From assembly GCF_000003815.2 (NCBI RefSeq), contig NC_049997.1, positions 2,763,589 through 2,827,588 of the forward strand: a DNA stretch of 64,000 nt. Direction: 5' to 3'. Of the stretch, positions 149 to 38,681 are shown one piece after another; the stretch's first letter is position 1, and every line of letters begins with the position of its first letter. The DNA comes from Branchiostoma floridae. Lineage: Eukaryota > Chordata > Leptocardii > Amphioxiformes > Branchiostomatidae. Made by a program: the position numbers and the translations under genes. Under the pieces are notes generated by a model. The model made no database searches. It saw only the letters and a program-made list of their open reading frames with translations, and had not been told where the DNA came from.

Positions 149-265
149 CACAATCTTTTTCATCAGTTAAGTCCAAACAGTTAGGTATTCCATCACAAGT
201 ACCGGCGGAGAATGGACCGCACTTGTGGGTTTCCTCACACTTTAAACCAAGGCACTGGACTGCCT
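149..265 (-). CDS. Exon: LDLa module K (last visible)
   Basis: 39 codons, phase 1-1, acceptor TGTTTTCAG and donor [38 protein letters not shown]: complete LDLa. It ends in phase 1, so the gene continues left of the window. Confidence 0.9.
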
Positions 266-3200
266 CTGAAAACAGGTAAGAAGAAGCTTGATTGAATCCA
301 TTCCATGTAGATGTAGATTCAAGGCGTTTCTTTTACACGGATGTGATTATGGTTAGGAAAACACAAGCAGTCTTTTATTATCTTTGAAGGAATGAAATGA
401 CATCAGTCTGTGTGCTTTTTCTCAGCTGATTGACCGAAACGCGTATGTCGTAGCTAATGTCGATCTACTTTAAGATTCTTTGCAAACAAATACTTGAAGG
501 GAATAGGCCTTATCCATCTGCTAAGATCTATAGCCATACTAGATTTAGTTCTTTGTAGTCTGGTTGGCAGGAAACATAAACACCGAACTTCGGGTAGAAC
601 ACTCCAGTACATGGGACCCAGCTTTGGTTTACAGACGACAGTAACTGTTCCTATGGTACTGTCTTACAATAGGAACATATCTAAACATGATTTACATATG
701 AGTGACACTTGAAGACGATTCTTACCGGTTTAACTAGTTGAATGTACTTAATTGAATTGTTTTGGCCAGTTCATTCTAGTGACGCTGAAAAAGAGTGATA
801 TATGTCCGAAAGCAAACCTCGTTTATTGTCCAGGTGTACGGGTTAAATTATATTTGAATATTATTGAGCTAGATAAACTGTAATTTCCAACACAAAAATT
901 GGACTCACCCAAAATTGCGACTGAACACCACCAGTGTTTGTCAAGGAGTGAACAATACTGTAAATGCATTTAAGTTTGCGGGGATTTAATTTCGCGGTAG
1001 CCGGAAAAAGGACTTTTCGCGGTGGTTTTAATTTCGCGGTAACACCATAGACTGCAGTCTGATACTATGATAATAAAATGTTCGCGGTGTTTTTTTTAAG
1101 TTCGCGGTAAAGTGGTCACCGCGAAAACCGCGAACATCAATTCACCGCGAACATTTCTACATTTACAGTACCTGGATGTCTAACCTTCATAAACGTATAG
1201 GATTCATTGTTATCTCGATACCTTGCTTTTGCAAAATCATCAGAAGAAAAGTTACCACAGTCTTGCTCGTCTTCCCAGTTACCACATTCAAACTGATTTC
1301 CATCATCACAGAAGAAGAAACTTGACGTGCACGCCCCGGTGCTGCACACATGGTCGTAAACATCCTCTTCGGTGTTCTGAGCCCCCATGATAGGCAGCAC
1401 TGCTGCAATGTATGTTCTCATGGATTCCCACTGCCCAGTACAGGTACCTGTCAGAAAACAATCAATATTAAGTATAGAAATTAGTAGTATCGGTAGGTAG
1501 GACTTAAACCTTCTCCGTAAGGAGGCGGGGGGAGGGGGTAGCCTGGATACCCTACCCCAACCTCAAAAATTTCTTTCGTGTTGTGGTCTGGCAGGATGGC
1601 TGTAGAAAGGTTCTCCCTTGATCAGAGAGATGAGAACCTAGGATTGATGACCACTCAAACCACAGGTAGCCAGCTACAACACACCACAGTTGGTCAGCAA
1701 GCTATCACAGTAGCGAATCAGATACTTAGTGGTTACTGTTATGGATTAAAAACATACAGGATCTTTAACCAATCATGGTAGGGTGTATTACCTCCTGCTG
1801 ATCCTGCTGCTGTTCTATTGGTGGAGTTTTTTGCCCACTATCTGAGGCAAAATTGAGAAGCCGGCCTATCCCATCCGGCCAGACCCCTGCACGATAGATA
1901 CTTGAGATCGGGCTGGGGTTTGGTAACCAGGCTAGGGGAGGGGGCAGATGATCTATGCAAGCCTGGCAAAGTCTCGTGTTCTCTCGCGAGATCGAGACTA
2001 GGACATTCTCCGTGACCAAGATGTGCTGTCAGACATCGAAAATCTGTTGGTAAGTACTCGTATACCTTTAAAACAGTCACTGTACATGTTGGAAGAAAAT
2101 TGATAGTAACCGGATACTGATGAATCTCTTCAACAAAGAATGATAATGATTGTAAATAAAAAAAAAATTAAAAAAAGATAAAAAATTCACGGGTCTTAGT
2201 GGCAAGTGTGCAGATGTTGACACACTGGCAGCACCAAATCCGTAGGTGTTTTTTGACACATTTAGACACATTAGCCGTGAGGCTCGGTGGGCGTCACTCC
2301 ACCGTCATGGGGGCAGGGGCATGGCGAGTATCGAACTCAGGACCTACTGATTCTGATTCCAACGCTAAAACCGTTGCGCCACACAGACACATGATTGTAA
2401 ATACTTATAGAGATCTAACATGAAGTCTCGTAACAGTGCATTATCAGCCATCAGTGCGGTTCTAATATCTCTTTGATAAATGAATTTGCATTAACCAGGG
2501 CTCGAAATTCTTTTTTTTGGAATTAGGTGCACTGGCGCACCCAGATTAAAAGATTGGGTGCACCAAAAAAAAATTTGGGTGCACCACTTACATTTAAGTA
2601 ATAACCTAATAGCAAAACCTTGTTACAAGCTATCAAATTCTTAAACAAGTACCATGACAGACATTTTTGTTATCTTTCTAACATTAGTGAGAATATGATG
2701 TATACTAGTATACTTTGATATCTTTACATACATAAACCTACGAAAATATTTGGGTGCACCCTGTGCACCCACAGAAAATATTTGGGTGCACAGCCAATTT
2801 TGGGTGCACCTGGGTGTACATGCACCCAGTATTTCGAGCCCTGTTAAGTAATGAAGCTCTTTACCACAATCCATTTCATCCTGCGGGCGTGAGTAGTCGA
2901 CGTGAAACATAAAAGTGCAGTCAGGAATACCATCGCAAACGCGATCCAGCCCAATGCATTCACTGTTAAATGTACCACAATAAAAGCCACCAGTAGACTT
3001 GCAATGCTCCTCTGTAATGTTGAAGAATACCGCAATGATTATGATGCGCATTACACCAGAAATGCTACTTTTACAACGGAATGTAAATGATACGTACTGA
3101 ACATGTAATAACTCGCAAGCAAGTACTTTAATACCGGCATGTATGGGCGGTAACCTGTCTTGTTGATTTATGAGTTTTCCTTTCTAAATTTGCTAATGAT

Positions 3201-3536
3201 GAGATCTTCAAAATTTGCTCTTTATTTGGATTGTACAGTATGGTACACCAAGCAGCCGAATGATCATCGTTATTAGGAACAGTAAGAAAGCATGTATTCT
3301 TTGAAGGCCAAACTTTGTTTTGCATCCTATTCTTTCAAAATAGTATGGCATCTGTGGCATTTATCTTGTACAAATTTTTCCCATCAAAAAGTAACCTCCG
3401 CAAGGCCTTAAAGGGGTTATGGAGGGTAGATTTCGGCAAAAATAGGGTGAAGAATTATATGACAACACTATAGCCATTGTAGAAGACTACTGGAAACACA
3501 TGCACATGTACCTCTCCTTCATAACCTTAGATTGAT

Positions 3537-3595
<59 letters not shown>

Positions 3596-3628
3596 TCGGA
3601 GAGAGAGTGAGAGATAGAGAGCCAGTCG

Positions 3629-3659
<31 letters not shown>

Positions 3660-6600
3660 GGGAGAAAGAGAGAGAGAGGTGATCATGACTTGGATTATTG
3701 GATGACGTTGTCATCTTTACAATCAATGGAAAACGTACCACAGTTTGCTTCGTCGTCAACACACGCCGATGCCTCTGTTGAGTCGTGAGTTATTGCCGTG
3801 TACATGTGACAGGAATTCAAGCCGTCGCAGATATCCTCGGGTAGGTAGCACTGTGTCAGCTGATTGCACTGGCACCTCCATCCTCCAATGGATTCGCAGT
3901 GTGCATCTTTTTTGGAGTCAATTGACGAGACAAAACCATTGCACGAGAATGAGACTTTAAATCTTGTCTATAGTCTAAGTCTGACCGACAGCAAAATGAA
4001 ATCATATCACAAAGTATTGCTGCAGCGGAATTTTCTTTCTTTTTTTATTTATTTTTATTATTTTGCTTTTGGACAGACGAGGATAATGTGGCACTGCACT
4101 CAAGATTTTGTAACTTACGAGGGTGAGTCAGAAAGGAATGCAAGTGGTTTCATAACAGAGTCTTTCTTTGATCGAATGAGTTGAAATTTGGCACAAAGGT
4201 TAAGACATCTCCCCTCTTGAGATTGAAACATCTAAATTTGTTGCTCATTGTTTTATAAGTGACTGAGCTGCTTTCAAGGTGACCACACCCTTGGTATCTC
4301 GCCAAATGAAAAGTGGGGTCCAATTAACGTACAATTAAGAATTTCCCTAAACCAATTTTTTTTACTGTAGGAGACTAAGCCAGCACATGCAATAAGCTGC
4401 ATTTCTCTATAAGCCACACGCTTATTTTCAACACTGAAATCCGAGCAGTATTTCTTTTTTCGTTGCTGGTGTAGATTGAGGTATACGCGGTCTTCAGGGT
4501 CATGAGATCTGCAGTGTTATGATTAAAACTGTCTGTAGCCTACTTTTTCATTAACAAAGAGAAATGAAACTTAGCACACTTTCTAGTCTTTAAACAGTTA
4601 ATAACTGTGTAAAGTTTCGTTTCTTTTGGTAGATGGAAAAGTAGTCTTTTAACCAACAACTCACGAATTCGTGTATAAATCCAACCGCTCTATAACGCAA
4701 CTTACTGCATCCTAGCAGCTGTAAATAAAGAACCATTACGAGTTTAGAAATGAAAATTGGTACACACCCTATAGAGACATTTGTTATCATACATATATAA
4801 TTTCAACCTCCTACAGTGATTTTTAGTGGGTCAGATTTAGAGGAATCGATAGTCTGACAAGCTACCAAGGGTGTGTTCATCTTGAAATCAACTCAGTTGC
4901 TCATAAAATGATAAAGACCAAATCTTCAAAACGTTCAATCTCAAGAGGACATATATCTCTACCTTTGTGCCAAATTTAAAATCAATTGATTAAAAAACGA
5001 GTCTGTTATGAAACCACTTGCATGACTTTCTGACTTACCCTCGTATATTAACAGTGCCACGTACACGGTAGGAAAAGGTAGTCTTTTATCTCCCTGACCG
5101 AAGTCAGGTACCCATTTTTACACCTGGGTGAAGTGAGGAAGGTCGTGTAAAGTGCTTTTCCCAAGGGCACAACAGCGGAATTTTCGGTTTCGATATCTGG
5201 TGTTCTAGATATGCTATGGTCGTGATTTTTGAGATAGCTCTTGGGGCAGATAGGAAGTAATGTAGGTTTGGCCGCCTAGCAACTTTTTTGGAATTGTATT
5301 CAAACAATGCCCCTATCACTCAAGACCTTTGTATAAGTAAGCTTCATGTTTTATGTAATTGTAGAGATTAATTCGTCTAAAACACGACTTCGTTCAACAA
5401 AACAGAGGATGTACACATATCGTCTTTATACCCCCTTTCCACTAGGACGGCGCTCTCGCGGCGCTCTCTCTGCGACCTCAAATTGGGAAGAGCGCGGTGA
5501 GAGCGCGGTGGGATCGCCAAGGTCGCGTGAGAGCGCCGTCAAGTGGAAAGGGGGCCTAAGCAATATGCAGCACATAGTATATAGTATAGTGGTTCCTAAA
5601 TGCTGAAAAACGATACTAACCACAGTGTTTTTCGTCCTCTCCATTTGCGCAATCAGGAATTGTATCACAAACGTAGTATTCGGGCAAACAGGTATTTTCT
5701 CCAGGGCATTTCCACCCGTACAATCCTTGGCATGGGTTCGCCAATCCTGCAAGATCAACATCATATAAACTTCGTTGTTAATGAGTTGACATTTTTTTCA
5801 GTTCATTTTATAGTCACCCATATGGTCTTTTGCAAAAAGAAAACAGTTCTCCTTTTAACATCACAAAACCCACACATAATAGAAAAGGTGGGATCTTTCG
5901 TCTTCCACTGTCTTCAACAAAGGAGTCGAACCCAATAACCCAGGATCTAGAGTTAGCTTTTACTAGTTTTAGACTAGAGTAGACACTTGTGATATTGTAT
6001 TTTACACTGTTTGAATCTTGTATGTTACCTGCAATTAGCCCACGTGCGAGAATTTGCAACAAACCTTGACTTTATTAGAGTAGACACTTGTGTTATTGTA
6101 TTTTACATTGTCTGAATCTATGTTACCTGCAATTAGTCCACGGGCAAGGATTTGCAATAAACTTGATTATTATTAATCATTTCGATCTGATAGAGGAAGT
6201 AAGTCACTGAAGACCTAAACAGTTGACCAATGCCAGTTGACCAAAGTTAATTCACTATACGACTCAAACAGTACGTGCTTGTTACGTATATGTATATGTC
6301 TATCTCTTTCTCTCTCTCTCTTTCTCTCACTCTGTCACTCTCTCTATATCTATCTACCTACCCATCTATCCATATATCTATCCATCCATCTATCTATCTA
6401 TCCATATCTATATATCTATATATCTATATATCTATATATCTATATATCTATATCTATATATCTATATATCTATATATCTATATATCTATATATCTATATA
6501 TACATCTATATCTATATATCTATATATCTATATCTATACATCTATATATCTATACATCTATACATCTATATATCTATATATCTATATATCTATATATCTA

Positions 6601-7449: not shown

Positions 7450-7484
<35 letters not shown>

Positions 7485-7529
7485 GGATAGATCGGTGGAT
7501 AGATAGATAGATAGATGGGTATATAGGTG

Positions 7530-7563
<34 letters not shown>

Positions 7564-25500: not shown

Positions 25501-28500
25501 CGTATGCCATGCTACTGCAACACGGCTTATAGTCCAGGAGGAGATTCTCAGAAGAGGCCTAGAAATAGCGTTTTGTAGCCCACCCCGTACTTATTTAGTT
25601 CACTATCATAGAATGATGGCATGATGCATCCCGATTATTATAAGGTACGAGGGGCGTTCAATAAGTAATAACTCTGACTCATTTCCCATAGCAGGAGATT
25701 AATGAATCTTGGCACAGTTATTAGTCTTTCTCTTCATAGGAACCACCCAGAGTTATGCATTTCTCCCATCGTTTGATGCAGCTCTGGACACCGTTTTTGT
25801 AGGACACCCCAGGTTGTTCCTCCAACAGATGCCTCATTAATGGCAGAAGAGGAACGACCAGGTCTGGGAGCTGTTTTTACAGACTTCCGGCCATGTTTGA
25901 ATTCAAGATGCCAGCGTTTTACAAGGTCATATGATGGGGCATCATCACCATAAGTTTCTTTCATTTCATCAAAAGTCTCCTTTGGTGTGCGTCCTTTCAA
26001 ATACAAAAACCGGATCACTGCGCGACACTCAACTGGCTCCATTTCACACCTGGTCCATTTCACACCTAACTCAGTTCAAACACCAGTAAATCAGAAACCA
26101 CAATTAGTTCAGAGCTCTTTTTTGCAACATAAACTATAGAGATATGAATCATTACACATGCAAAATTTCATCTAGATCAGACAACTGGAAGTGGGTCAGA
26201 GTTATTACTTGTTGAACGCCCCTCGTATGTTGTTCTATGGTCCAGGTGGGACATCATGGTTCTAGGGCTCTTTTTCGAAACCACATTTTTTCAGATATCT
26301 CCTCCTGGACTATTAGCCTAGTTTGCAAAAAAAGTTCGTAGGAAGAAATGTCATACCCGAGCTTCTGTCCACCGCTTCGTAACGTGCTAAAAATCCAACC
26401 TTGCGCATCACAAAGTCCGTGACGAAAAAGACGTACCAGAATGTGTTTAGTGGAGGTTACAGTGTTATTATGTGCGCAGCTGCCACACCAGTAGAAGGAT
26501 CCTTCAACATAGGGGTCTTTCGCCTGTACATAATCACTATGGCAGCCCTGGTCGTAATTCAAATCGAAGTCCACAAACTTTAACTTGACAGTCTGGTGTG
26601 TATCCACGGTGATGTTCCACTGTTGATACACGTGGTTACGGTAAGGGTAGTGCGGGTAGTTCATGGAAGAAAACGTGCCAGTATCGCCGAACAGTTGGTG
26701 TATTCGTTGGTATCCTTGAAGATCTTGTAATGGAAACGCCTTGTGTTAACAGCTATCCGCATAGGGCCGAGTACAATACAACAATGAATACTTTCAGGAG
26801 CGGTCTTGAAAAATTGCTTTGTCATAACACTGTTTGAATATCATATCTACATGAGATGTTCTGATCATGCCTACATCTGCACAATCAAAGCCTGGTCATG
26901 CCTCTTAAAAAATTTAATCTACACAGGTAAAAATGTTGACAGTCCAAAACATTAACCTCCACCTGTTACAAACTACACGTATTATAGTCTTATGATGAAA
27001 AACTGTAAATGTAGACTTTCCATATTGAATGTGATCTCCCATCCCTGCCTGAGCTACCTGCATACAAAATATCATGGAATCCGTCATTCCTTTGTCCCGT
27101 TATTCTCCTTGGAAGATGTTAAGGCATGCTCCTAGTGGGGCTGAGGACCTCAGAGGTTGTCTTAAAATTTATAAAAATGATACTTAGAGTTATCCATGGC
27201 TCTTGATTTTTTTTCTCCGAGTACCTTGTTACAAGACAATAATGCACGCATAATCTCATGACGTCATGATGACGTCATCAAACACTAGGGTGCCACGCCC
27301 ATGCCATGCCCATTTTCACATAAGTGGCCCACACTCCCCAGTGACTTAATGTACATTGCTCATGCTTCAAATTTGCCCTGCATTTCCGAAGCAATTTCAA
27401 GCTATCTGCCACAAAGCAAGATCATGTTACGTCAAGGTCAAAACATGCAAAAAACCGCAGTTCTGTTGCAGTATCAAGGTCAAATACCAGGGGGCCCAAA
27501 ATCGACTTTGACCTTCGTCTTTACAACACCTACCCACAATATTTCTCCACGCGGTCGTTTTTTCTTCATACCCTCACTTTGAAATGGAGAAACTTGGAAA
27601 GCCAATATGGGACTTAAAATAACATAGTGGCAGGCAGAGGCGTGTCCAGTTTGCAGGTCACTGTCATCGCGCAAGTGAAGAAGTGATCTCTTCACTCCTC
27701 TTATGGAGACCTAGAGGAAAGTCCTATTCGAGGAAGCTCACCTACCCAGCAACCATTTCTAGAGACACAGGGATTGACACCGAGGACTTTGGAACAGCCG
27801 TGAAAAACCGTGTGTATTGGAGAAATGTTGTGCAACGCCTCACCCACCCGCCAGGGACGACAGATGATGATGATGAACATAGTGGTATTCTTATAATTCA
27901 TTTACCATTATCAGAACACACAATGACCACGCTAAGAAATTAAAGGAATAAAGTATAACCATGTTTTTAAACCCACCATCTTCAGACTGGTCCTGTAGAT
28001 GGTAATGAATTTTAAAACCGGTTCCGGAGATGTCTGCATCACTGTGAAAACGAATCACCAAGACTGGTGCCATCGAGACGTACACGGGAGGCAGGGACCT
28101 ACCGCAGAACGTTTGGTAGAAGTCTGGAGTATATCATAAAAGTTCAAAGATAAAATTAAATATGAACATAAGGTATCGTCAGGTATACGTACCGCGTTTC
28201 CCGTGCGTACGTTAAATCAGTTTCATAATAAAATGTTAACCCTTGTCATGCTGAGGATTTTTTTGGCATATTTAACACCCCCCCCCCAGCTGGTTAACGT
28301 TAATTAATCAGATCTGTGAAACCTGAACTATTCTGTAATGCTGCTGCAGATTCACTTTCCCATCGATGCGCTTTGCTGCGGTATGCCACATTTATAGTCT
28401 CTACCAGACTCCGGATCGCTGGAAAAATCGTAGAAATGGAACAAATAGAGGAGTAAGCCGGCCAGAGGAATATAGCTGGGTAGGGAACAGCACGCGATCG

Positions 28501-31500
28501 CGATCCGGAGTCTGGTAGAGACTATAAAGATACTGGACCAACATAAAGGCATCATTTATGTCCATCTACATGTATATATACGGGATAATCAGGACAAATT
28601 AACATGAAATTCTGTCCAAGGATAGGGCTTCCGTACATGCAATGTAAAATTATGTAACTTGGGAAAAACTATCGATTAGAATAGATAATGCTAATTACAA
28701 CCTTATTTGATCAATGTGGGCGTGGTTTGCATAATTAATATGGAAATGCCATAATTATTTTGTGACAAATGATTGGAATTTTATACTTGTGGCATTTTTA
28801 ATTAGCCAGAGTAAGTTGTCATGAATAGAGTATGTAAACATGAGTTGAATAAAATGTTGTAGCAATTCTATTCCTAAACCCAAAAACATGCAATGTATTT
28901 GGTTAGGCCATTAGGAATGCTAGCTAATTGTAGTGTGTTCAGTAAAATTGCTCAGAGAAAATAATTGTTTAAATGAGCATAATCAACATCAAAATGATAA
29001 TGACCATATTTGGCTAACTTACTCAGATATGACATGTCCTGTAGCTGAAGAAAGTCAAAGCGGCACCTTGACTCATAGTCTATGTCGAATTCCAGAAACT
29101 CCACGACCACCACCTTTCCTGGAACTGCCTCGACTACCCAGCTAGAACAACAAAAATAGATGTCACGGAAGTTCATCTGTGTCGGTAGTAATCATAGCAC
29201 AATGCTAAACTTTCTTCCAACACACCTTCTTGGCCCTTTTGTATCCTTCGTTTCTTGATAGTTTTGAAACCCACAATGAAATTAGTTATTTTTGTTGTGC
29301 AATGCTAAACTGGTCTTCCAACACAAAGGTATACGCGGATCATATTTTCAGTGACCACTGTCGCCTTCTTCAGGACCAATACTGCAATGATCATGAATCA
29401 GTATTTATCCCGAAGAAGGCGTCAGTAGTCATTGAAAATTTGAAACGTGTACTCCACCTTTGTGTTGTTTAGCATTGCACAACAAAATTTCATTGTGGAT
29501 TTCGAAACTATCAAGAAAAAAATGATACAAAAGGGACAAGATCGTTATCAGCGAATGCGGGGGTCGATGCCAGCTTCCGACGATCTTTGCAACAATGCTT
29601 ACGTCATACATGTGGAATATTCACTTGTCTACAACACTAGGATCAGTAGCCGAAGAAGACCGAGAGATTCGGCGGGAAATTCCAATGAGCCAAATTTCAT
29701 ACAGATAGAGGGGGTTGACATCATCTTTATTCACATATAAACGCAACACATTTAAAAGCAACATACAAGATGAGTTTAAGAGACGAAGAAACCTAGGCCG
29801 ACCCCTTAATCAGAATAATAACAATTCCGGAGGGCGCAAGGTAAAACATCAGGTGTGCATCCGACGTTTTGATACATATAGTATTGCACAACGTTACATA
29901 GCAATCTTAGAGTGTATTGCACTGTAGCTTTTACAATAATATTGCACTTAAACAAGATATATTGCACTTGAACAAGATATATTGCACTTAAACAAGTTAA
30001 AAGTTATCTGCTAGAGAATAACCCAGATGGGGTAGCTAATGTATGGATATCGATGAATGTAGAAATAAATATTATATTACCTGCAATCGACGTTGGTCGG
30101 GTACTTCCCGGTCTCCGCATCGCGAGGGGAAAGAATCTCTCCCTCCTCCTCATATAGAAAACGGCCCTCAGTGGCTACACACTCATGCGCAGAGTCTATT
30201 GTACGGGGCATATAGAACGACAATGGTTTGTTTGTTTATCTATTGTTTATCTTATTTTGCAAAAATTGTAACAATTGCAAATTAATAGTAACAGCAATAC
30301 AAGGTTGGTCTGAAGCTAGAAAGCCTATATAAATTTTATATATTATGTTGACCACCAAAATTAGATAACTATACCTATACAATACATCATAAAAATACTA
30401 TGCCAATTTTGGTAGTGAGCGTAAATTGATCAAAGATGGGCATAATAAACTTAACTCGAATTATGTATTTTCTACAGGGACAAATTTAGATTAATTCTGG
30501 ACATCATTGTCATTCAGATAAAGATACGTTAAATATACGTTAAATACCTGAACATACGTTAAATATAAAACATTTAAGAAAAAGAAAACAAAATTATTTA
30601 TCCTACCTTCACAACTTGGAGGATCGAAGTTCCAGTCTATGACATCACCAGACATACACGTAAGTGTTTCCTGGCCCATCAAACTGTAGCCTTCGTTACA
30701 GCCGAACGAAACAGCCGACCCTACAGCGAAACTGTCTCCTGTTCTGGACCCGTTGATAGGAACGCCGGGGTCCGGGCAAGAATCTCTCATCAAAACAAAT
30801 GCTAATCTCCGAAAGGAAAATAGTATTCTCTTCAGATGATTTGGTACATAAATTTGTAAATAGTTTACATAAAGCTGCCTGTACATATGTAAATACTTGA
30901 CGTTTTGTGGCCACACCTGAACTGTGAGCAGCGACACCTGTCCTGCAGTACAATGTGAACCAGTCAGAATTGCCCTGAAGAAGGTGACAGACGGTCACCG
31001 AAACATCACCGAAGCATTGGNNNNNNNNNNNNNNNNNNNNNNNNNNNNNNNNNNNNNNNNNNNNNNNNNNNNNNNNNNNNNNNNNNNNNNNNNNNNNNNN
31101 NNNNNNNNNNNNNNNNNNNNNNNNNNNNNNNNNNNNNNNNNNNNNNNNNNNNNNNNNNNNNNNNNNNNNNNNNNNNNNNNNNNNNNNNNNNNNNNNNNNN
31201 NNNNNNNNNNNNNNNNNNNNNNNNNNNNNNNNNNNNNNNNNNNNNNNNNNNNNNNNNNNNNNNNNNNNNNNNNNNNNNNNNNNNNNNNNNNNNNNNNNNN
31301 NNNNNNNNNNNNNNNNNNNNNNNNNNNNNNNNNNNNNNNNNNNNNNNNNNNNNNNNNNNNNNNNNNNNNNNNNNNNNNNNNNNNNNNNNNNNNNNNNNNN
31401 NNNNNNNNNNNNNNNNNNNNNNNNNNNNNNNNNNNNNNNNNNNNNNNNNNNNNNNNNNNNNNNNNNNNNNNNNNNNNNNNNNNNNNNNNNNNNNNNNNNN

Positions 31501-33178
31501 NNNNNNNNNNNNNNNNNNNNNNNNNNNNNNNNNNNNNNNNNNNNNNNNNNNNNNNNNNNNNNNNNNNNNNNNNNNNNNNNNNNNNNNNNNNNNNNNNNNN
31601 NNNNNNNNNNNNNNNNNNNNNNNNNNNNNNNNNNNNNNNNNNNNNNNNNNNNNNNNNNNNNNNNNNNNNNNNNNNNNNNNNNNNNNNNNNNNNNNNNNNN
31701 NNNNNNNNNNNNNNNNNNNNNNNNNNNNNNNNNNNNNNNNNNNNNNNNNNNNNNNNNNNNNNTAGTTCAAATTGGACAAATATAGATACATAACATGCCA
31801 GATGAGTTAGCTGACCGAGAAGTATGGTTAGCGACCCAACTAACTCGTCCGACATGTTACCTGCATATTTACGTTTGTCCAATTTCTATTATTTTTACAA
31901 CGACATGTGGGGCCTGATGGAGGCAAATACTCCCATGCGCACCTCATACGGACTTAAATATATACGCAGGTGTGACCCCACCTTAACTTCTGGAGTGTCA
32001 CCCCGTATGTATATTTTATCAGTACGTTTTATTACATACCCTCAAAGTAGATCCTGAAACCATCATCAGTGTAAGAGTAGTCTGTATTGAAGACTAGATG
32101 GGCCAGGTTGGAAGTAGCAATGACTTCTTCTGGCATATTTGCTCCTGTTAAGAGTTTGGAATTAGCTGGTTAGGAAATATGATAATACAAACTAGTGTGA
32201 AATGGTTTGGTCGCAGCGCGGCTCTGTCATCCTCCTAACGCCCGGTCCCCAACGGCATTAGCCTATGGGGCCCTGCTATCTCATGCGCTATCAGTGGTTA
32301 TTATGATTGTCGCCACACACAAGCTCTCAACCAATCAGAGAATAAGCCTTTCTTGGGCTTGTTGTTGTCGCAAGCTGTCTCGCAAAGGCCGCTGGGAAAC
32401 TATCAGCCAATCATGTTACGTACTACATGGCTCCATCCTCCTACGCCCGATCCCCAACGGCTGACTGCCCATATAAGGGCAAGCTCATTAATATTTATAA
32501 TTAGGGCGGTCCCTAACTGGTCTGAGTGCACAAGGTAGCAGAGGTAAACACAGGGAGTTTTGACACGACTGTGGTTCCTCTGCGTAGGAGAATGGGCTCT
32601 GTGAGGTCGTCGCCCTTGTGGAATGGGCGAGTCACCAAAACATCCGAGCCCAACACTGCAGGGCTCGAGTGTTGGGCTAAGAACTAGACGTCCCGAGTTC
32701 GATACTCGTCGTGCCCCCGACGTTGTGCCGTAGTTAAAGGCACTTTACACGACCTTCCTCACTTCACCCAGGTTTGAAAATGGGTGCCGGATGGTTGGCG
32801 AGGTAAAAGACTACCTTCTGTCTGTTCTTATGTCACACTTTTAACATAATTTACTAACTTGAGGGAAGTGCCACATTGTCCCCGTATAGTCCTATTTTAG
32901 TCAAATAAAAAAACAACATCAGAGCTTGCAAGCTAAAACTGAGACAAGTCTACCTGTGTATGATCCCAATAAGATAGCACTGTCTAGTTCTCCCATGTAG
33001 ATATCCAGCCAGTCATAATTTTCCTCCAAAGAAAACGATTCTGGTGTGATTTTCACCCCTTCTCCTATGTTGACCTGGATGGTCCACATACAGTACAAGC
33101 TGTTGGCGTACTGCCCAGGATAGTTGGGAGAAGAGACGTAGCCAGAATACTGGCCGGTAATGTAACCACCGCAGTCAC
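149..33178 (-). CDS. Multi-exon mosaic gene: CUB-Sushi-CUB-CUB-tectonin repeats-LDLa(x11+), both ends open
   Basis: At least 23 exons, read from high to low coordinate, give about 1,290 codons: CUB (33178-32040), Sushi (30783-30607), CUB (30195-27977), CUB (26714-26373), tectonin/beta-propeller repeats (25182-19347) and eleven LDLa modules (18835-149). Each exon has AG/GT borders and the phases match from one exon to the next. Almost all exons are phase 1-1. CUB, Sushi and LDLa are disulphide-bonded extracellular modules, and tectonin repeats form sugar- or lipid A-binding propellers in lectins such as tachylectin-1 and fish egg lectins. A secreted or ectodomain recognition protein is therefore likely (inference). 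No signal peptide, start codon, stop codon or membrane segment is visible; the start should lie above 33178 and the C-terminus left of base 1. The N-run at 31021-31762 may hide another exon. Introns are loaded with transposons. Confidence 0.8.
266..1255. other. Intron between LDLa modules J and K
   Basis: No coding signal recognised. It contains one MITE copy (956-1170). The 72-codon plus-strand open frame at 494 has no recognisable motif. Confidence 0.6.
956..1170. mobile_element. MITE copy, TIR tactgtaaatgca, 'ttcgcggt'-rich
   Basis: Begins tactgtaaatgca and ends in its inverse ...atttacagta, with repeated 'ttcgcggt' and 'accgcgaa' blocks inside. Two further copies sit at 46386-46591 and 52391-52560. 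No coding capacity. Confidence 0.8.
1256..1447 (-). CDS. Exon: LDLa-like module J with N-terminal extension
   Basis: 64 codons, phase 1-1, acceptor TTCTGACAG and donor GTAACT. Starts [17 protein letters not shown], then [29 protein letters not shown]. The last half is LDLa-like, but the usual CDG..DC box is altered to [11 protein letters not shown]. The extension resembles that of module F (hydrophobic AIV/AVL stretch). Confidence 0.8.
1448..2495. other. Intron sequence with SINE-like and GC-rich repeat pieces
   Basis: No exon recognised. 1500-1560 holds a short GC-rich segment containing tagcctgg, reminiscent of the small element at 14981-15089. 2280-2390 holds a tRNA-like SINE head. The open frames at 1578-2271 have no family features. 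Confidence 0.5.
2280..2390 (-). mobile_element. tRNA-derived SINE head
   Basis: On the minus strand a pol III box A-like TGGCGCAACGG is followed about 30 bp later by box B-like GAGTTCGATACTC, the arrangement of a tRNA-derived SINE. Truncated; no poly(A) seen. Confidence 0.55.
2496..2843. mobile_element. TIR element with cagggctcgaaat ends, TTAA flanks
   Basis: Perfect 13-bp terminal inverted repeats cagggctcgaaat (2496-2508) and atttcgagccctg (2831-2843). TTAA occurs at 2491-2494 and 2844-2847. The inside is made of repeated, alternately oriented 'gggtgcacc' blocks. Right TIR is 18 bp from LDLa module I's donor. Confidence 0.8.
2865..3011 (-). CDS. Exon: LDLa module I
   Basis: 49 codons, phase 1-1, acceptor AACATTACAG and donor [32 protein letters not shown], then a longer loop and PQDEMDC. 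The insert between Cys 5 and 6 parallels module H. Confidence 0.88.
3541..3690. repeat. (GA)n microsatellite
   Basis: About 150 bp of nearly pure GA dinucleotide with a few interruptions, in the intron just before LDLa module H. Confidence 0.95.
3739..3906 (-). CDS. Exon: LDLa-like module H, expanded C-terminal loop
   Basis: 56 codons, phase 1-1, acceptor CCAAAAAAG (weak tract) and donor GTACGT. Begins [18 protein letters not shown], then [10 protein letters not shown], and after an approximately 18-residue insert ends CVDDEANC. Eight Cys, two more than standard LDLa. The HC.S.GG..C opening is shared with module I. Confidence 0.8.
4118..5043. mobile_element. Long-TIR element (Tc1/mariner-type TA duplication), non-autonomous
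   Basis: cgagggtgagtcagaaag at the left and its inverse at the right, flanked by TA (4116-4117 and 5044-5045). Inverted similarity extends roughly 200 bp into each arm (for example the ggcacaaaggt / acctttgtgcc pair). No transposase is recognised inside. Confidence 0.8.
5050..5170 (-). mobile_element. SINE tail fragment
   Basis: The segment containing cacctgggtgaagtgagg and cgtgtaaagtgcttttccc is the inverse of the shared body of the SINEs at 18005-18486 and 32640-32870 (fast-repeated 'aaaggcactttacacgac'). The head is missing. Confidence 0.6.
5431..5554. mobile_element. Short MITE, TIR ccccctttccactaggacgg
   Basis: Ends with ccccctttccactaggacgg and the inverse (ccgtcaagtggaaaggggg). Another copy at 23516-23749. 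Confidence 0.8.
5621..5746 (-). CDS. Exon: LDLa module G
   Basis: 42 codons, phase 1-1, acceptor TCTTGCAG and donor [39 protein letters not shown]: complete six-Cys LDLa. Confidence 0.9.
5830..5945 (+). pseudogene. LINE C-terminal coding remnant
   Basis: The plus-strand reading [27 protein letters not shown] closely parallels the minus-strand fragment at 41688-42146 (LLTSHNPRIIEKVGHFVFHC). Only the last residues and the 3' tail (aataaactt near 6160) survive. Confidence 0.6.
6296..6631. repeat. (CT)n then (TATC)n microsatellite up to an assembly gap
   Basis: Pyrimidine-rich ctctct, grading into tatctata tracts, broken by the N-run. Long tyrosine/serine/isoleucine open frames here are artefacts of the repeat. 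Confidence 0.95.
6632..6731. other. Assembly gap (100 N)
   Basis: Exactly 100 N, a conventional unknown-length gap. It removes the end of LDLa module F. Confidence 0.99.
6732..6882 (-). CDS. Exon: LDLa-like module F, cut by an assembly gap
   Basis: The acceptor ATGAAG gives phase 1. The reading [11 protein letters not shown] ... [16 protein letters not shown] is LDLa-like but runs into the N-run at 6731 before its last two Cys and the donor. About 50 codons are visible. Confidence 0.72.
7097..7565. repeat. (TAGA)n microsatellite
   Basis: Imperfect tetranucleotide gata/gatg/ggta repeats interrupted by a short unique segment near 7240-7290. That segment (caccaacaactaaagcgtt) is nearly repeated at 8681-8700, beside the LDLa module E donor. 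Confidence 0.95.
7563..7970. mobile_element. Putative MITE, acagtcaaacctg ends
   Basis: Begins acagtcaaacctgcccaaga followed by paired gaccacc / ggtggtcg blocks facing each other; the right end is lost in the microsatellite/gap. Similar sequence at 48975-49160. Confidence 0.55.
7981..8080. other. Assembly gap (100 N)
   Basis: 100 N at the start of the tagata array. Confidence 0.99.
8081..8668. repeat. (TAGA)n array with higher-order structure
   Basis: The rare variant gcgatag recurs at 8181, 8289, 8361, 8449, 8521 and 8609, with spacings 108, 72, 88, 72 and 88. From 8289 on the tetranucleotides are therefore organised in a period of 160 bp. Confidence 0.9.
8703..8954 (-). CDS. Exon: LDLa module E with long N-terminal extension
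   Basis: 84 codons, phase 1-1, acceptor TTTCTGCAG and donor GTAACG. An approximately 40-residue non-Cys lead with N-glycosylation sequons (DNSS, DNTS) precedes the LDLa: [33 protein letters not shown]. The longest exon of the LDLa series. Confidence 0.88.
9003..9275 (-). mobile_element. tRNA-derived SINE
   Basis: On the minus strand the head reads TGGCCGAGTGGG (box A) and about 30 bp later GAGTTTGACCCC (box B). A body of about 200 bp follows. Confidence 0.65.
9307..9450 (-). CDS. Exon: LDLa module D
   Basis: 48 codons, phase 1-1, acceptor GGAAAG and donor GTAAGA. Contains [32 protein letters not shown] and EDGSDEEKC. Canonical LDLa with an extended first loop and an aromatic residue before the second Cys. 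Confidence 0.9.
9451..10174. other. Intron, no gene; (GAAT)n array and left repeat of a LINE insertion
   Basis: Nothing coding recognised. 10059-10133 is (gaat)n. 10135-10174 is the left copy of the 40-bp direct repeat that flanks the LINE. Confidence 0.7.
10174..12573 (+). CDS. LINE reverse transcriptase open frame (partial, intact to stop)
   Basis: An uninterrupted frame of about 800 codons. RT landmarks in order from the GTG codon at 10306: the [17 protein letters not shown] segment (about residue 82), [15 protein letters not shown] (finger/palm), [12 protein letters not shown] (motif A with catalytic Asp), [12 protein letters not shown] (motif B), and [10 protein letters not shown] (motif C, DD pair intact, Tyr replaced by Leu). 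Near the end is a CCHC-like zinc knuckle [17 protein letters not shown] typical of LINE ORF2 C-termini. No endonuclease domain remains. The frame has no stop codons, so the insertion is young. Clade not assigned. Confidence 0.88.
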   Translation, partial: SSYKLLQEAKQNEELAVLAASNDKEFWKKIRQRKGRTNRPQAVKVGEQVINNPSQVRETWARHFETLGNEQEEEAVRFDEIHKNQITEEVAKMEEESYNNLEGILEEPFSPQEVASICKGLKNGKSGGRDGLVYEHIKYGGEALWARLTLLFNAIREKEHIPEGFKKGLKIPLLKQGKTNKTDMDSHRGVTLLPVISKVWERTLFNRWSPWLHDRSIPHQLQNGGQVGCSNITTAFIVREVINHYIERGSLVYGCFLDTKKAYDTVWLEGMLFKMYKKGVNGRLWRLLKLMHTGCTYSVMLNGGFSREFSTTRGVNQGGVLSLTCYLLATDDVHDELQLQSGGVSIGGISCASPALADDICLLASTQAGLQRMIDTMEHYGKKWRFEFAPGKSKCIIFGQTTSSHNVASETTLWKMGTSSIPETATVTHVGVQHSANMLSKEPIEGACRKGKGKISAILTTGSEGQHPNPLIYKTLYNTLVIPSMLHGCEFWDPSSSDLLKLERVHRRGAKNMQGMHFQTETTACLSAIGLTSLKSILDKCKLCLFGKLVSLQNTVLAKRVFLIRLYSYILAKPGSKTRGFVDECFEVAKEYGLVEWLEGYWLTTDFPTVDAWKHLVKTTIQTQESERWRESTASETNCHRFYRVHQTNNKPHKLWTLARQQPEYQRDLKNLILLSTIPTRHTVKACPTCHNATEDLVGHLFTRCFTFNHLRQTLAEEIANTLGVRVMAKVHEQPDERFTEVMLGAEIVEEAVEPAVWSAFITTTARLLRPLAAMALKHATWKERQNCSTGMENRTHES
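10175..13158 (+). mobile_element. 5'-truncated non-LTR retrotransposon with (GAAT)n tail
   Basis: Coding strand opposite to the host gene, in its intron. Direct repeats 10135-10174 and 13159-13198 are identical over 40 bp and flank the insertion as a target-site duplication. The 3' region (12574-13120) is non-coding and ends in a (gaat)n tail at 13120-13158, like the tetranucleotide array to the left of the insertion. The N-terminal endonuclease part is missing, so the copy is 5' truncated. Confidence 0.88.
13748..13891 (-). CDS. Exon: LDLa module C
   Basis: 48 codons, phase 1-1, acceptor TTTGCAG and donor GTGGGA. Cys contexts are [28 protein letters not shown] and DGSDEIRC, an archetypal LDLa ending. 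The spacer between the first two Cys is longer than average. Confidence 0.9.
13937..14250. mobile_element. MITE, TIR taaggtggggtcacac
   Basis: aaggtggggtcacacatgcg at the left is mirrored by cgcaggtgtgaccccacctt at the right, with extended inverted similarity (gtatatatt, aagtccg). A second copy is at 31763-31985. Confidence 0.8.
14251..14750. other. Intron, LINE/SINE 3'-tail fragment
   Basis: 14490-14530 contains caaagtttattgcccagca, a reversed 3'-end of the LINE type seen at 24640 and 44230. Otherwise nothing recognised. Confidence 0.45.
14981..15089. mobile_element. Small element tagcctg...caggcta with 10-bp target duplication
   Basis: 109 bp bounded by tagcctg and caggcta, flanked by the direct repeat gttcactgcg (14971-14980 and 15090-15099). 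The homologous MITE at 19733-19981 has the uninterrupted gttcactgcg, which shows this is an insertion. Confidence 0.88.
15328..15375 (+). pseudogene. Copied tectonin-exon fragment (intron end plus 29 exonic bases)
   Basis: Plus-strand ttttcttcacacag followed by 29 bases identical to the start of the exon at 19664 (minus strand), preceded by about 45 bp of the matching intron (ctctcaaccttttgccagtc) with an 11-bp deletion. It lies inside the nested transposon. The copy is inverted relative to the source, so it is not usable by the host gene in this orientation. Confidence 0.88.
15493..15621 (-). CDS. Exon: LDLa module B
   Basis: 43 codons, phase 1-1, acceptor GGTTTCCAG and donor GTATGC. Six Cys: [32 protein letters not shown]. 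The calcium-site acidic set is intact. Confidence 0.9.
15850..16450. repeat. Tandem repeat of about 152 bp, four diverged units
   Basis: The landmark cgacgattttt/cgatgatattt recurs at 15904, 16056, 16208 and about 16356. Each unit also contains a ctgtatctc..gaacgg block and a cttgaacttgaca block. The open frames inside have no protein motif. Confidence 0.85.
16451..17928. other. Intron without recognisable gene
   Basis: No exon of the host gene was found. The small open frames at 16561-17218 lack motifs. 17160-17230 is a GC-rich repeat with tcaggctaca, possibly the same family as 14981-15089. Confidence 0.5.
17929..18648. mobile_element. TIR element aaagctaagggcaca, interrupted by a SINE
   Basis: Left taaagctaagggcacaaccc, right gcgggttgtgccctttaga. 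Homologous to 19004-19343, but with a 482-bp SINE (18005-18486) inserted. Confidence 0.82.
18005..18486 (+). mobile_element. tRNA-derived SINE, full length with poly(A) and target duplication
   Basis: Head contains pol III box A TAGCACAGTGG (18015-18025) and box B TGTTCGAATCC (about 18058). The body includes gggaaaggcactttacacga, and the end is a 12-base A tract. Flanked by acgtatt (17998-18004 and 18487-18493). The homologous element at 19004-19343 lacks it, proving insertion. Confidence 0.9.
18710..18835 (-). CDS. Exon: LDLa module A (most N-terminal)
   Basis: 42 codons, phase 1-1, acceptor GTATCAG and donor GTACGC. Six Cys in the pattern [34 protein letters not shown]. The C-terminal acidic residues (D..DC.....DE..C) that hold calcium in LDLa modules are present. 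Confidence 0.9.
19004..19343. mobile_element. TIR element aagctaagggcaca with TA target duplication
   Basis: Inverted ends aagctaagggcacagccc and gggttgtgcccttagctt, flanked by TA (19002-19003, 19344-19345). Its right edge abuts the tectonin exon and forms part of that exon's donor site. Confidence 0.85.
19347..19664 (-). CDS. Exon: tectonin-type repeats 5 and 6
   Basis: 106 codons, phase 1-1, acceptor TTCACACAG. It holds two repeats: [23 protein letters not shown], and [23 protein letters not shown]. Five tectonin exons carry about six repeats, the number of blades in known tectonin propellers. The donor GTAAAG overlaps the TA target duplication and inverted-repeat end of an inserted transposon (19004-19343). 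The acceptor and first 29 exonic bases also exist as a copy at about 15328-15375. Confidence 0.87.
19733..19981. mobile_element. MITE, TIR aaggtggtatctcact
   Basis: Left caaggtggtatctcactgca; right tggagtgagataccac. Inside has repeated ccgcagt blocks. Relatives occur at 14921-15287, 24791-25010 and 34587-34845. It lies 69 bp upstream of the exon 19664 acceptor. Confidence 0.82.
20045..20400. mobile_element. Possible MITE, imperfect TIR (gggccttcacattg / tgtgaacgggcct)
   Basis: AT-rich body with many gaattc/attcg words between partial inverted ends. Weakly supported. Confidence 0.4.
20440..20770 (+). pseudogene. LINE ORF2 C-terminal fragment
   Basis: The frame from 20501 reads [18 protein letters not shown], then [21 protein letters not shown] and a terminal AHLTAS, the well-known C-terminal signature of many LINE ORF2 proteins (R.LRWLGHV.RM...RGRP...W). 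Everything upstream is missing. Confidence 0.85.
21218..21506. mobile_element. TIR element cctggaatccagtct with TTAA target duplication
   Basis: Perfect ends cctggaatccagtct / agactggattccagg with TTAA at 21214-21217 and 21507-21510, a piggyBac-type target. An internal second inverted pair is cacccggtaggatttt / aaatcctaccgggtg. Confidence 0.85.
21540..22075 (-). pseudogene. LINE 3'-end fragment
   Basis: Starts with a reversed 3' tail (gaatgaattcattgtacatt) and parallels the better preserved copy at 44225-44811, including the region for a Cys/His knuckle near 21900-21960. No intact frame. Confidence 0.6.
22095..22215 (+). mobile_element. tRNA-derived SINE head
   Basis: Box A-like TGGCGCAATCG (22106) and box B-like GAGTTCAAACCCC (22149), then the body cttgtgcccttgggaaaggc shared with 18005-18486. 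Truncated before its tail. Confidence 0.7.
22301..22453 (-). CDS. Exon: tectonin-type repeat 4
   Basis: 51 codons, phase 1-1, acceptor CTTCATAG and donor GTAGCA. Reads [18 protein letters not shown] then [14 protein letters not shown], a canonical tectonin repeat with both Trp positions. Confidence 0.85.
22500..23200. other. Intron, AT-rich, no gene recognised
   Basis: Simple AT-rich sequence ending one segment with aataaacaaacaaaac near 22900, probably another retroelement tail. No exon. Confidence 0.45.
23293..23489 (-). CDS. Exon: tectonin-type repeat 3
   Basis: Phase 2 to phase 1, acceptor TGTTTACAG and donor GTACTG. Contains [13 protein letters not shown] and a diverged repeat ending [18 protein letters not shown]. 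Longer and less regular than its neighbours; the repeat boundary is uncertain. A MITE (23516-23749) lies 26 bp upstream of the acceptor. Confidence 0.72.
23516..23749. mobile_element. MITE copy, same family as 5431-5554
   Basis: Same ccccctttccactagg ends. It is inserted only 26 bp upstream of the acceptor of the tectonin exon 23489-23293, so it probably contributes to the branch-point region. Confidence 0.8.
23968..24180 (+). pseudogene. LINE ORF2 C-terminal fragment
   Basis: One plus-strand frame reads [20 protein letters not shown], then [18 protein letters not shown] and [15 protein letters not shown] before a stop: the FPRTI..WN.L end typical of CR1/L2-like LINEs. Confidence 0.78.
24497..24611 (-). 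CDS. Exon: tectonin-type repeat 2
   Basis: Phase 1 to phase 2, acceptor TTGTCCAG and strong donor GTGAGT. Reads [23 protein letters not shown] then YRVGTHG: one clear tectonin repeat (W..v.G....isvG..gVWav......yrv). The phase-2 end fits the unusual phase-2 start of the next exon. Confidence 0.85.
24791..25010. mobile_element. MITE, relative of 19733-19981
   Basis: Shares the ttcactgcggggttcga, acgaatttcagag and gcaatatctaaat blocks with the other copies. The right end stops about 10 bp from the donor of exon 25182-25021. Confidence 0.75.
25021..25182 (-). CDS. Exon: tectonin-type repeat 1
   Basis: 54 codons, phase 1-1, acceptor ATATTTAG and donor GTAAAG. Contains [28 protein letters not shown], with the spaced pattern I..iSvs.....vWAld..G typical of tectonin repeats. 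A MITE ends about 10 bp beyond the donor. Confidence 0.75.
25648..26225 (-). mobile_element. Internally deleted mariner-type transposon
   Basis: About 30-bp inverted ends cgaggggcgttcaataag / cttgttgaacgcccctcg, flanked by TA (25646-25647, 26226-26227). 578 bp against about 1.3 kb for a full mariner. It retains the N-terminal helix-turn-helix coding part and a few C-terminal codons. Confidence 0.9.
25734..26063 (-). pseudogene. Mariner transposase remnant: N-terminal HTH only, frameshifted end
   Basis: 109 codons. [19 protein letters not shown] and [17 protein letters not shown] are the first and second helix-turn-helix segments of mariner transposases. The PRPGR linker follows, and then the reading changes abruptly. 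The DDD/E catalytic core is deleted. The final segment encodes the usual mariner C-terminus ([10 protein letters not shown]) in the neighbouring frame, so the junction is out of frame. DNA-binding capacity could remain; transposition cannot. Confidence 0.85.
26373..26714 (-). CDS. Exon: CUB domain 3 (single exon)
   Basis: 114 codons if the GTGGAC donor after 26373 is used, giving phase 1-1 and joining the next tectonin exon in frame. A better-looking donor (GTATGA, after 26357) would end in phase 2 and demand another exon. The reading shows [50 protein letters not shown], a WCGSC segment and a GWIFST end: a CUB-like fold with four Cys. The acceptor is CTTCAAG. The 3' border is uncertain. Confidence 0.75.
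26715..27680. other. Intron, no gene recognised
   Basis: No CUB, tectonin or LDLa exon seen. Several short repeats; the open frames at 27301-27695 show no family features. Confidence 0.5.
27683..27880 (+). pseudogene. LINE ORF2 C-terminal fragment (second family)
   Basis: Reads [20 protein letters not shown], then [19 protein letters not shown], resembling the GRP..TY...l..DTG....l..am.dR..WR ending of other LINE families. Confidence 0.65.
27977..28123 (-). CDS. Exon: CUB domain 2, C-terminal part
   Basis: 49 codons, phase 1-1, acceptor ATACTCCAG and donor GTGGGT. Contains FCGRSLPP, then [20 protein letters not shown], an unmistakable CUB ending (FCG..pP, l.i.F.sD....GtGF...Y). CUB domain 2 is therefore encoded by three exons, unlike the single-exon CUB at 26373-26714. 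Confidence 0.88.
28389..28531. mobile_element. Palindromic MITE, TIR tagtctctaccagactccgg
   Basis: tagtctctaccagactccgg at 28394 and its exact inverse ending near 28524, about 130 bp in total. Confidence 0.8.
29023..29141 (-). CDS. Exon: CUB domain 2, middle part
   Basis: Phase 2 to phase 1, acceptor TGTTCTAG and a strong donor GTAAGT. It reads [19 protein letters not shown] followed by a Cys-flanked acidic strand [10 protein letters not shown], matching the CUB core strand and the C..D.l.i.d motif. Its D/E spacing is compatible with a calcium-binding CUB. Confidence 0.82.
29210..29545. mobile_element. Long imperfect palindrome (foldback MITE)
   Basis: The arms tagttttgaaacccacaatg and cattgtggatttcgaaacta, and the inner pair gtcgccttcttc / gaagaaggcg, mirror each other over about 330 bp. 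Intronic, between CUB exons. Confidence 0.7.
30081..30195 (-). CDS. Exon: CUB domain 2, first part
   Basis: 38 codons, phase 1 to phase 2, acceptor CAATAG and donor GTAATA. It begins [12 protein letters not shown] and continues [21 protein letters not shown], the first Cys and beta strand of a CUB with the SP.....YP....C pattern. The phase-2 end joins exactly to the next exon and restores a Ser codon before Trp. Confidence 0.75.
30607..30783 (-). CDS. Exon: Sushi/CCP domain
   Basis: 59 codons, phase 1-1. It holds one complete complement-control-protein module: four Cys in the contexts [20 protein letters not shown] and PSCEG, plus the conserved Trp before the last Cys ([11 protein letters not shown]). 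One module of about 57 residues is the family norm. The donor is GTAGGA. The acceptor AGAG|AT gives phase 1, which fits the end of the previous visible exon (32040) without needing an exon inside the N-gap, although one cannot be excluded. Confidence 0.88.
30930..31020. repeat. Dispersed repeat fragment next to gap
   Basis: Contains cctgaagaaggtgacag and ggtcaccgaaacatca, similar to the gaagaaggcg/gtcactgaaa blocks inside 29210-29545. Cut by the N-run. Confidence 0.5.
31021..31762. other. Assembly gap (742 N)
   Basis: 742 N between the Sushi exon and the CUB 1 exons. Phases are compatible across it, but a phase 1-1 exon could be hidden. Confidence 0.99.
31763..31985. mobile_element. MITE copy, same family as 13937-14250, cut by an assembly gap
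   Basis: Right two thirds of the element; the left end lies in the N-run ending at 31762. Contains the same catgccagatgagttagctg segment. Confidence 0.8.
32040..32144 (-). CDS. Exon: CUB domain 1, C-terminal third
   Basis: 35 codons, phase 1-1, acceptor TTAACAG and donor GTATGT. It ends in the CUB signature TDDGFRIYF (usually D..GF.a.Y) after a hydrophobic strand HLVFNTD. It completes the CUB begun at 33178-32954. No Cys pair is visible in this half, so one disulphide usual in CUB domains may be absent. Confidence 0.8.
32205..32530 (+). promoter_or_regulatory. Possible promoter-like or LTR-like segment (CCAAT and TATA motifs)
   Basis: Two ccaatca motifs (32331, 32407) and catataaggg (32470) in promoter order on the plus strand, plus a repeated pair cctcctaacgcccggtcccc / cctcctacgcccgatcccca. 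It lies in an intron of the minus-strand gene. No gene follows; it may be part of a retroelement. Confidence 0.3.
32640..32870 (+). mobile_element. tRNA-derived SINE
   Basis: Box B-like GAGTTCGATACTC (32695) followed by the shared body aaaggcactttacacgacct and cttcacccaggtttgaaaat. The head before box B is diverged. Confidence 0.65.
32954..33178 (-). CDS. Exon: CUB domain 1, N-terminal two thirds
   Basis: 75 codons, phase 1-1, with acceptor TTTAG and donor GTAGAC. The translation opens with DCGGYITG and contains [12 protein letters not shown], the classic start of a CUB domain, followed by an aromatic/acidic strand around YDWLDIYMG. With the next exon (35 codons) the domain is about 110 residues, the normal CUB length. 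This is the most N-terminal exon found; an upstream exon ending in phase 1 is required. Confidence 0.85.
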
Positions 33179-38195: not shown

Positions 38196-38229
38196 AATAC
38201 GACGTGTCCGAAACAACGGGCTCTCATTT

Positions 38230-38630: not shown

Positions 38631-38681
38631 TAAACAGCTCTGACGGAATATTGATATATTATAAAATACGAATTCCAAATA

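Follow-up and report, generated by a model that had tools for sequence, protein, structure and literature searches.

A CUB-Sushi-tectonin-LDLa mosaic of Branchiostoma floridae: most likely one large gene, with a possible lectin-like recognition role

Introduction

Exons for CUB, Sushi, tectonin and LDLa modules follow one another on the minus strand of a stretch of Branchiostoma floridae DNA, and the locus raises the question of whether they belong to a single gene and what the protein of such a gene might do. The original prediction, made from the letters alone, had joined three CUBs, one Sushi, about six tectonin repeats and at least eleven LDLa modules between positions 33178 and 149 into one secreted, lectin-like polypeptide, with two adjacent genes as the alternative. 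The stretch analysed (the window) comprises 64,000 nucleotides, C19:2763589-2827588 of a genome of 513,431,437 bases in 431 contigs; all positions are those of the window, and negative values lie past its left end.

The modules themselves are known ones. Their combination may be new as far as the open-access literature shows, no description of an architecture with tectonin, LDLa and CUB modules having been found in titles and abstract openings, and a database annotation of the gene may well exist. New domain pairs have been gained by lancelets at 10-100 times the usual metazoan rate, according to the excerpted text of one study (PMC4284660).

Structure of the Gene

Modules were located in the six-frame translation with Pfam, single-sequence HMM searches, motif patterns and a local LDLa HMM, and exon edges were set from splice sites and phase. 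Five of the 18 paralog loci described below were read over 40 kb each (C2, C14a, C14b, C14c and C7), the other 13 being represented by match positions only. In the window, 22 complete minus-strand exons of the CUB, Sushi, tectonin and LDLa modules splice in frame at the coordinates originally given, with edges recovered at 33178, 26373, 25182, 19347, 18835 and 149, and this part of the chain amounts to 1,200 residues with 0 stops; a 23rd exon (LDLa6) is interrupted by an assembly gap. The predicted modules were all found, but their extent had been underestimated: the start lies upstream of 33178, at 34299, and the gene continues about 9.9 kb past the window's left end. The full model comprises 34 exons and 1,787 residues with 0 internal stops, in the order signal peptide, CUB-A, Sushi, CUB-B, CUB-C, tectonin (about six repeats), 13 LDLa, F5/8-C-like, CTLD1, linker, CUB-like start and CTLD2. 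It contains 110 cysteines and nine N-glycosylation motifs, and no transmembrane segment was found in its 1,787 residues, the top 19-residue hydropathy beyond the first 40 residues being 1.33.

Two joints of the model skip an exon, namely LDLa5-LDLa7 (the gap-cut exon) and that between the CUB-like exon and CTLD2 (an unfound exon); since the model leaves out LDLa6 as well as the first, unfound exon of CTLD2, the true protein is longer than 1,787 residues. Five of the 33 joints are phase 2/2 or 0/0 and the rest are 1/1. Splice sites were picked with phase in mind, so that the open frame counts only in part as independent evidence, and, since extracellular modules commonly share phase 1-1, phase alone cannot settle between one gene and two. 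By the splice-site score of this analysis, weak donors occur at CUB-C (1.5) and LDLa1 (1.4), and weak acceptors include those of Sushi (-6.5) and LDLa8 (-7.9).

The N-terminal head is made up of the following exons.

34215..34299, minus strand: predicted signal-peptide exon (ATG 34299, 28 aa, donor phase 1, GCACG|GTAAAG); homologous exon at C2 and C7
32954..33178, minus strand: CUB-A, first exon, phase 1-1 (Pfam CUB 2.1e-15)
32040..32144, minus strand: CUB-A, second exon (spliced CUB-A, Pfam 8e-24)
30607..30783, minus strand: Sushi exon (Pfam Sushi 1.2e-07)
30081..30195, minus strand: CUB-B exon 1, phase 1 in, 2 out (spliced CUB-B, Pfam 2.9e-19)
29023..29141, minus strand: CUB-B exon 2, phase 2 in, 1 out
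27977..28123, minus strand: CUB-B exon 3, from splice sites and phase
26373..26714, minus strand: CUB-C, a single exon (Pfam CUB 5.1e-14); 19 family-level genome matches

The signal-peptide exon lies 1.1 kb upstream of CUB-A. Its homologue stands before the first CUB-A at C2 and before CUB-B at C7 (65% shared over 26 residues between C2 and C7, and 46% over 28 between the window gene and C2), and was not found in the 2.4-3.2 kb read upstream at C14a, C14b and C14c. Secretion, as predicted, agrees with this exon, common to two of the five paralogs read, and with a model that contains no other strongly hydrophobic segment.

The tectonin block follows.

25021..25182, minus strand: tectonin repeat 1 (Hyd_WA 9.9e-05)
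24497..24611, minus strand: tectonin repeat 2, phase 1 in, 2 out, from splice sites and phase
23293..23489, minus strand: tectonin repeat 3, divergent, phase 2 in, 1 out; homologous exon at all five paralogs read
22301..22453, minus strand: tectonin repeat 4, from splice sites and phase
19347..19664, minus strand: tectonin repeats 5 and 6 (Pfam Tectonin 3.1e-12); 19 near full-length genome matches

Spliced together, the block matches PF19193 at 5.6e-21 (75.4 bits against a cut-off of 30) and Hyd_WA at 5.7e-12. About six repeats are counted by reading, the divergent repeat 3 giving no Pfam match when searched alone. Tectonin 2 (5fsb, 5.3e-09) and fish-egg lectin (4ruq, 7.9e-04) are sequence relatives whose structures have been solved. 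Many more tectonin exons lie outside the 19 loci, on C5, C13, C4, C61, C3, C14, C11, C137 and others (at least 150 scored matches in total), which suggests that the genome carries a large number of further tectonin genes. A mariner-transposase-like fragment (25737-26075, minus strand, by reading) sits in the intron that separates CUB-C from tectonin 1.

The LDLa modules in the window are these.

18710..18835, minus strand: LDLa1 (Pfam 4.1e-05, barely above cut-off); 19 genome matches at E<=0.001
15493..15621, minus strand: LDLa2 (local LDLa HMM)
13748..13891, minus strand: LDLa3 (local LDLa HMM)
9307..9450, minus strand: LDLa4 (local LDLa HMM)
8703..8834, minus strand: LDLa5 (local LDLa HMM)
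6732..6882, minus strand: LDLa6, degenerate, cut by a 100-N gap (6632-6731) and absent from the spliced model; degenerate homologue at C2, C14a and C14c
5621..5746, minus strand: LDLa7 (local LDLa HMM)
3739..3906, minus strand: LDLa8 (local LDLa HMM)
2865..3011, minus strand: LDLa9 (Pfam 0.002, under cut-off; local LDLa HMM)
1256..1447, minus strand: LDLa10 (Pfam 0.021, under cut-off; local LDLa HMM)
149..265, minus strand: LDLa11 (local LDLa HMM), after which the gene runs on below the window to -9876

The spliced LDLa block is matched by Pfam at 3.6e-34, and eight stretches pass the cut-off individually. The local HMM was built from ten modules of the window, which it recovers by construction; its one extra match, weak at E 0.05, is the half module at the gap, and the next matches have E of at least 0.56. 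With LDLa12 and LDLa13 below the window (five and four cysteines, respectively) added to the eleven within it, the array numbers 13 modules, one of them gap-cut. Among the 12 examined (all but LDLa6), all four acidic calcium positions are kept in eight, and an aromatic residue stands two before Cys4, which we take to be the place of the LDL-receptor tryptophan, in two. The LDLa3/LDLa4 intron contains a long open reading frame resembling a LINE reverse transcriptase (10174-12570, plus strand, by reading), and the LDLa1-LDLa2 intron a tRNA-Thr-like gene found by ARAGORN (18008-18079, plus strand), which could be a tRNA-derived repeat.

Past the window's left end follow LDLa12, LDLa13, the F5/8-C-like domain, CTLD1, a linker exon, the CUB-like start, a partial CTLD2 and the stop. 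The F5/8-C-like domain is so named because its match to Pfam F5/8 type C (8.2e-05, 23.2 bits) falls under the cut-off of 28.2; the corresponding score at C2 is 18.8 bits. CTLD1 and the partial CTLD2 match Pfam Lectin_C at 6.8e-12 and 1.9e-06, respectively. EPN or QPD is the canonical sugar motif of C-type lectin domains in the abstract of PMC5379193; by reading, QPD is present in CTLD2, and CTLD1 has neither. For CTLD2, a first exon could not be located in the DNA past the window's left end, and the CUB-like start, whose exon is degenerate in this gene, gave no Pfam match. The last exon ends ...RSGDNA-stop, with the stop codon at -9874..-9876, and that of C2 ends ...RPGDTA-stop; the terminal residues align and the stop stands at the identical place. 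An AATAAA overlaps the stop in the window gene and is absent at C2.

One Gene or Several

Exons from successive blocks were searched for across the genome; the searches score the best candidates only, and match counts are therefore lower bounds. The tectonin 5-6 exon matches at least 82 places, 19 of them near full-length at 124-239 bits and the next at 73.6, and CUB-C matches at least 39, 19 of them at 68.5-269 bits, mostly with about 85% query coverage, and the next at 38.7. For LDLa1 there were 19 matches and no others at E<=0.001 (best 150 of 201 candidates scored), and for the first exon of CTLD1 at least 102 places, of which 18 score at least 97.8 bits and the next 45.2 (best 150 of 525 candidates scored). 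At all 19 loci tectonin 5-6 is preceded on its own strand by CUB-C, at a distance of 3.5-13.5 kb, and followed by LDLa1 after 0.5-6.1 kb, and CTLD1 follows 10.5-49.7 kb downstream of tectonin 5-6 at 18 of the 19, the match missing at C14:1076k among the best 150 of 525 candidates scored. Linkage of the F5/8-C-like exons is seen at the window locus, at C2 and, for the first exon, at C7. Two neighbouring genes would hardly stay together at every copy, and the locus is therefore most likely one large gene, as the joint occurrence of CUB-C, tectonin 5-6 and LDLa1 in the same order and strand at 19 of 19 loci and a frame open over 34 exons indicate. A chance neighbourhood of the blocks was ruled out by the repetition of their order at 18 other loci.

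The alternative of two or more adjacent genes would have a downstream gene begin either before tectonin 1, at ATG 25510, or before LDLa2, at ATG 15655. The first of these candidates, between CUB-C and tectonin 1, has a hydrophobic reading (hydropathy 3.09) and a phase-1 donor scoring 1.9, but the peptide has no match at any of the five paralogs read. From the second, a hydrophobic stretch reads straight into LDLa2, a pattern of a type that stands in front of 2 of the 20 exons tested, compared with 18 of 684 control acceptors; the same stretch, however, serves a strong acceptor (5.5) as its pyrimidine tract, and an in-frame Met before LDLa2 occurs at one of the five paralogs read (C2, in a different place) and at none of the other four. 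Read-through of the weak LDLa1 donor reaches a stop ten codons later, yet this donor lies one base past the last Cys codon, as it does in eight of the ten complete LDLa exons of the window. AATAAA hexamers stand between blocks at 25301, 18866 and 15807, but the window has 40 on the minus strand and 48 on the plus, and hexamers of the poly(A) type are uninformative. A signal peptide common to C2 and C7 upstream of the first CUB in each, together with CTLD1 at 18 of 19 loci, also speaks against an internal start. A second gene beginning at 25510 or 15655 was rejected on the 19-locus linkage and on the conservation of neither start in the paralogs read, and two adjacent genes are considered very unlikely. 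These two observations outweigh the 25510 candidate, the LDLa modules missing from some paralogs (see below) and the hexamers between blocks, and the one-gene reading is kept for that reason.

Start exons were also scanned for directly. A stricter scan (hydropathy of at least 2.3, donor of at least 2) returned 16 minus-strand and eight plus-strand candidates, none of them in 26372-25183 or 19346-18836; it missed the accepted exon at 34299 (hydropathy 1.99 in the looser scan), and its silence is for this reason weak evidence. The looser scan gave ten candidates between 48000 and 33179; in 26373-25183 it gave a single one (25510), and in 19347-18836 it gave none.

The Paralog Family

The family comprises at least 19 loci, the window gene included, each with CUB-C, tectonin 5-6 and LDLa1, and these 19 occurrences of the core design suggest an expanded family of recognition proteins. 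Distinct working genes may number fewer than 19, given a near-identical pair on C14, a possible allele on C251 and a copy with four stops. The C14 pair consists of inverted gene copies at C14:2701k (minus strand) and C14:2825k (plus strand), with tectonin exons about 124 kb apart; the C251 locus lies on a small contig; and the CUB-C exon match with four stops, at C19:2186712-2187050, possibly marks a decaying family member.

Exon order is the same at all five paralogs read, as far as each stretch reaches. C2 has all 13 LDLa modules, the F5/8-C-like exons, CTLD1, the CUB start and pieces of CTLD2, and C7 has 12 LDLa modules and the first F5/8-C-like exon; inside the parts read, LDLa4 was not detected at C14c (the plus copy of the inverted pair), nor LDLa6 at C7. 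The N-terminal modules vary. CUB-A is present once in the window gene, three times at C2 and one and a half times at C14b and C14c. At C14a, where 3.2 kb was read on the upstream side of Sushi, no CUB-A was seen, and at C7 the 5.9 kb read ahead of CUB-B showed no CUB-A and no Sushi.

Selection was estimated over module groups other than the signal peptide, linker and CUB-like exon, leaving out exons that were missing or matched less than 75% of the query, and the LDLa7-13 rows of C14c/window gene, C14b/C14c and C14a/C14c, in which LDLa modules were wrongly paired. The ratio dN/dS is below 0.5 in every module group tested (0.12-0.49 in usable comparisons), the values being rough because many dS are high. 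It is lowest in CTLD1 (0.12, one pair) and LDLa1-5 (0.15-0.21), and highest in tectonin (0.29-0.48) and the F5/8-C-like domain (0.37-0.49, three pairs), with CUB-A (0.31-0.40) and Sushi (0.16-0.37) overlapping these last two; a reading of the propeller as diversified is weak, since the values of CUB-A and Sushi (to 0.40 and 0.37) nearly match those of tectonin and F5/8-C-like. Between C14b and C14c, the CUB-A and Sushi exons are identical and yield no ratio, and tectonin dS is 0.11.

Relation to Known Systems

CUB and Sushi modules are combined in MASP/C1r-type complement proteases and in CSMD proteins. The window gene likewise has CUB and Sushi modules at its N-terminus; it differs from this group in arranging them as CUB-Sushi-CUB-CUB, in continuing with tectonin and LDLa, and in having no membrane anchor. 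No serine protease domain was matched by Pfam in the stretches scanned, and the frame ends after CTLD2. With the LDL-receptor family the gene shares a long LDLa array; it differs from that family in having no membrane anchor and in mostly not keeping the tryptophan position. Neither EGF nor YWTD gave a Pfam match in the stretches scanned, which lie outside the signal-peptide, LDLa6 and linker exons.

Its tectonin repeats, about six, are as in the tectonin-propeller lectins (tachylectin-1/horseshoe-crab GBP, fish-egg lectin, tectonin 2 and hTectonin). GBP, however, consists of six tectonin domains only, as the excerpted text of PMC2707011 has it, whereas the repeats here are one part of a mosaic whose length is at least 1,787 residues. 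The same excerpt reports that tectonin domains of horseshoe-crab GBP and human hTectonin bind LPS, and that hTectonin binds M-ficolin (PMC2707011). Lancelet APEC proteins have the order fucolectin, C-type lectin, C-type lectin, CUB and APEC, and resemble the window gene in combining several lectin modules with CUB; the window gene has tectonin and LDLa, which go unmentioned in the excerpted text of that source (PMC12373286), and no APEC match was obtained in the stretches of the gene scanned with Pfam.

Possible Functions

A lectin-like recognition role, strengthened by the C-type lectin and F5/8-C-like modules, would be reasonable from what is known of these families. It is judged somewhat probable that the window gene, as one of the 19-locus family, encodes a secreted multi-lectin recognition protein that works like the tectonin lectins. 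In such a protein the tectonin propeller and the F5/8-C-like and C-type lectin modules would bind microbial or egg-coat glycans, and the LDLa array would form a calcium-stabilised, disulphide-rich rod. The CUB-Sushi-CUB head might dock onto host proteins, for example lectin-complement components. The mode of action would be pattern recognition of the tachylectin-1/GBP type, with several lectin types in a single chain, and specificity may have been diversified among paralogs by the number of N-terminal CUBs and by the tectonin and F5/8-C-like parts, in which dN/dS is highest. A more speculative extension, put forward tentatively, holds that the 19-locus cephalochordate family as a whole consists of giant soluble multi-lectins with three or four lectin-type modules and a CUB/Sushi head, which would act as diversified non-self recognisers feeding the lectin-complement pathway without a protease.

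Long LDLa and CUB mosaics are common in the extracellular matrix, and the product could instead be a secreted mosaic with a structural or reproductive job, in the egg envelope, mucus or extracellular matrix. The tectonin block is related in sequence to fish-egg lectin, and a dN/dS below 0.5 in every module group tested would also suit such a role; the 19 loci and the highest dN/dS in tectonin and F5/8-C-like fit recognition somewhat better, and the structural or reproductive reading is regarded as a less likely, though quite possible, one. A receptor or carrier for lipoprotein or vitellogenin, similar in kind to the LDL receptor, as the thirteen LDLa modules might suggest, is highly improbable, given a model with no transmembrane segment, an aromatic residue two before Cys4 in just 2 of 12 modules, and stretches that, when scanned with Pfam, matched neither EGF nor YWTD; membership of the LDL-receptor family was rejected for the missing membrane anchor and the mostly lost tryptophan position. 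There is equally little to expect from a decaying or mis-assembled copy in place of an active gene, which the gap in LDLa6, the degenerate CUB-like exon and the family member with four stops in an exon match would fit, but which 0 stops in 1,787 codons and a dN/dS of 0.12-0.40 against three paralogs contradict.

If the recognition reading is true, a multi-gene family of candidate recognition proteins, not described in the literature searched, would be added to a basal chordate. The family would then allow a test of exon shuffling through symmetrical phase-1 modules, with later amplification of the entire mosaic (34 exons at least), and its paralogs would form a defined set for asking which part, the propeller or the CUB head, accounts for the diversity.

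Neighbouring Features

Several other features were noted by reading around the mosaic gene.

54253-63415, minus strand: exons resembling an EPS8-type gene, with stretches similar to PTB, SH3 and SAM
about 48743-51334, plus strand: tetraspanin-like exons
about 36373-40473, minus strand: DIRS-like mobile element whose open reading frame resembles a tyrosine recombinase, located on the upstream side of the signal-peptide exon
about -20.3 to -18 kb, plus strand: TSG101-like exons with a UEV-like stretch, likely the next gene, tail to tail with the mosaic gene
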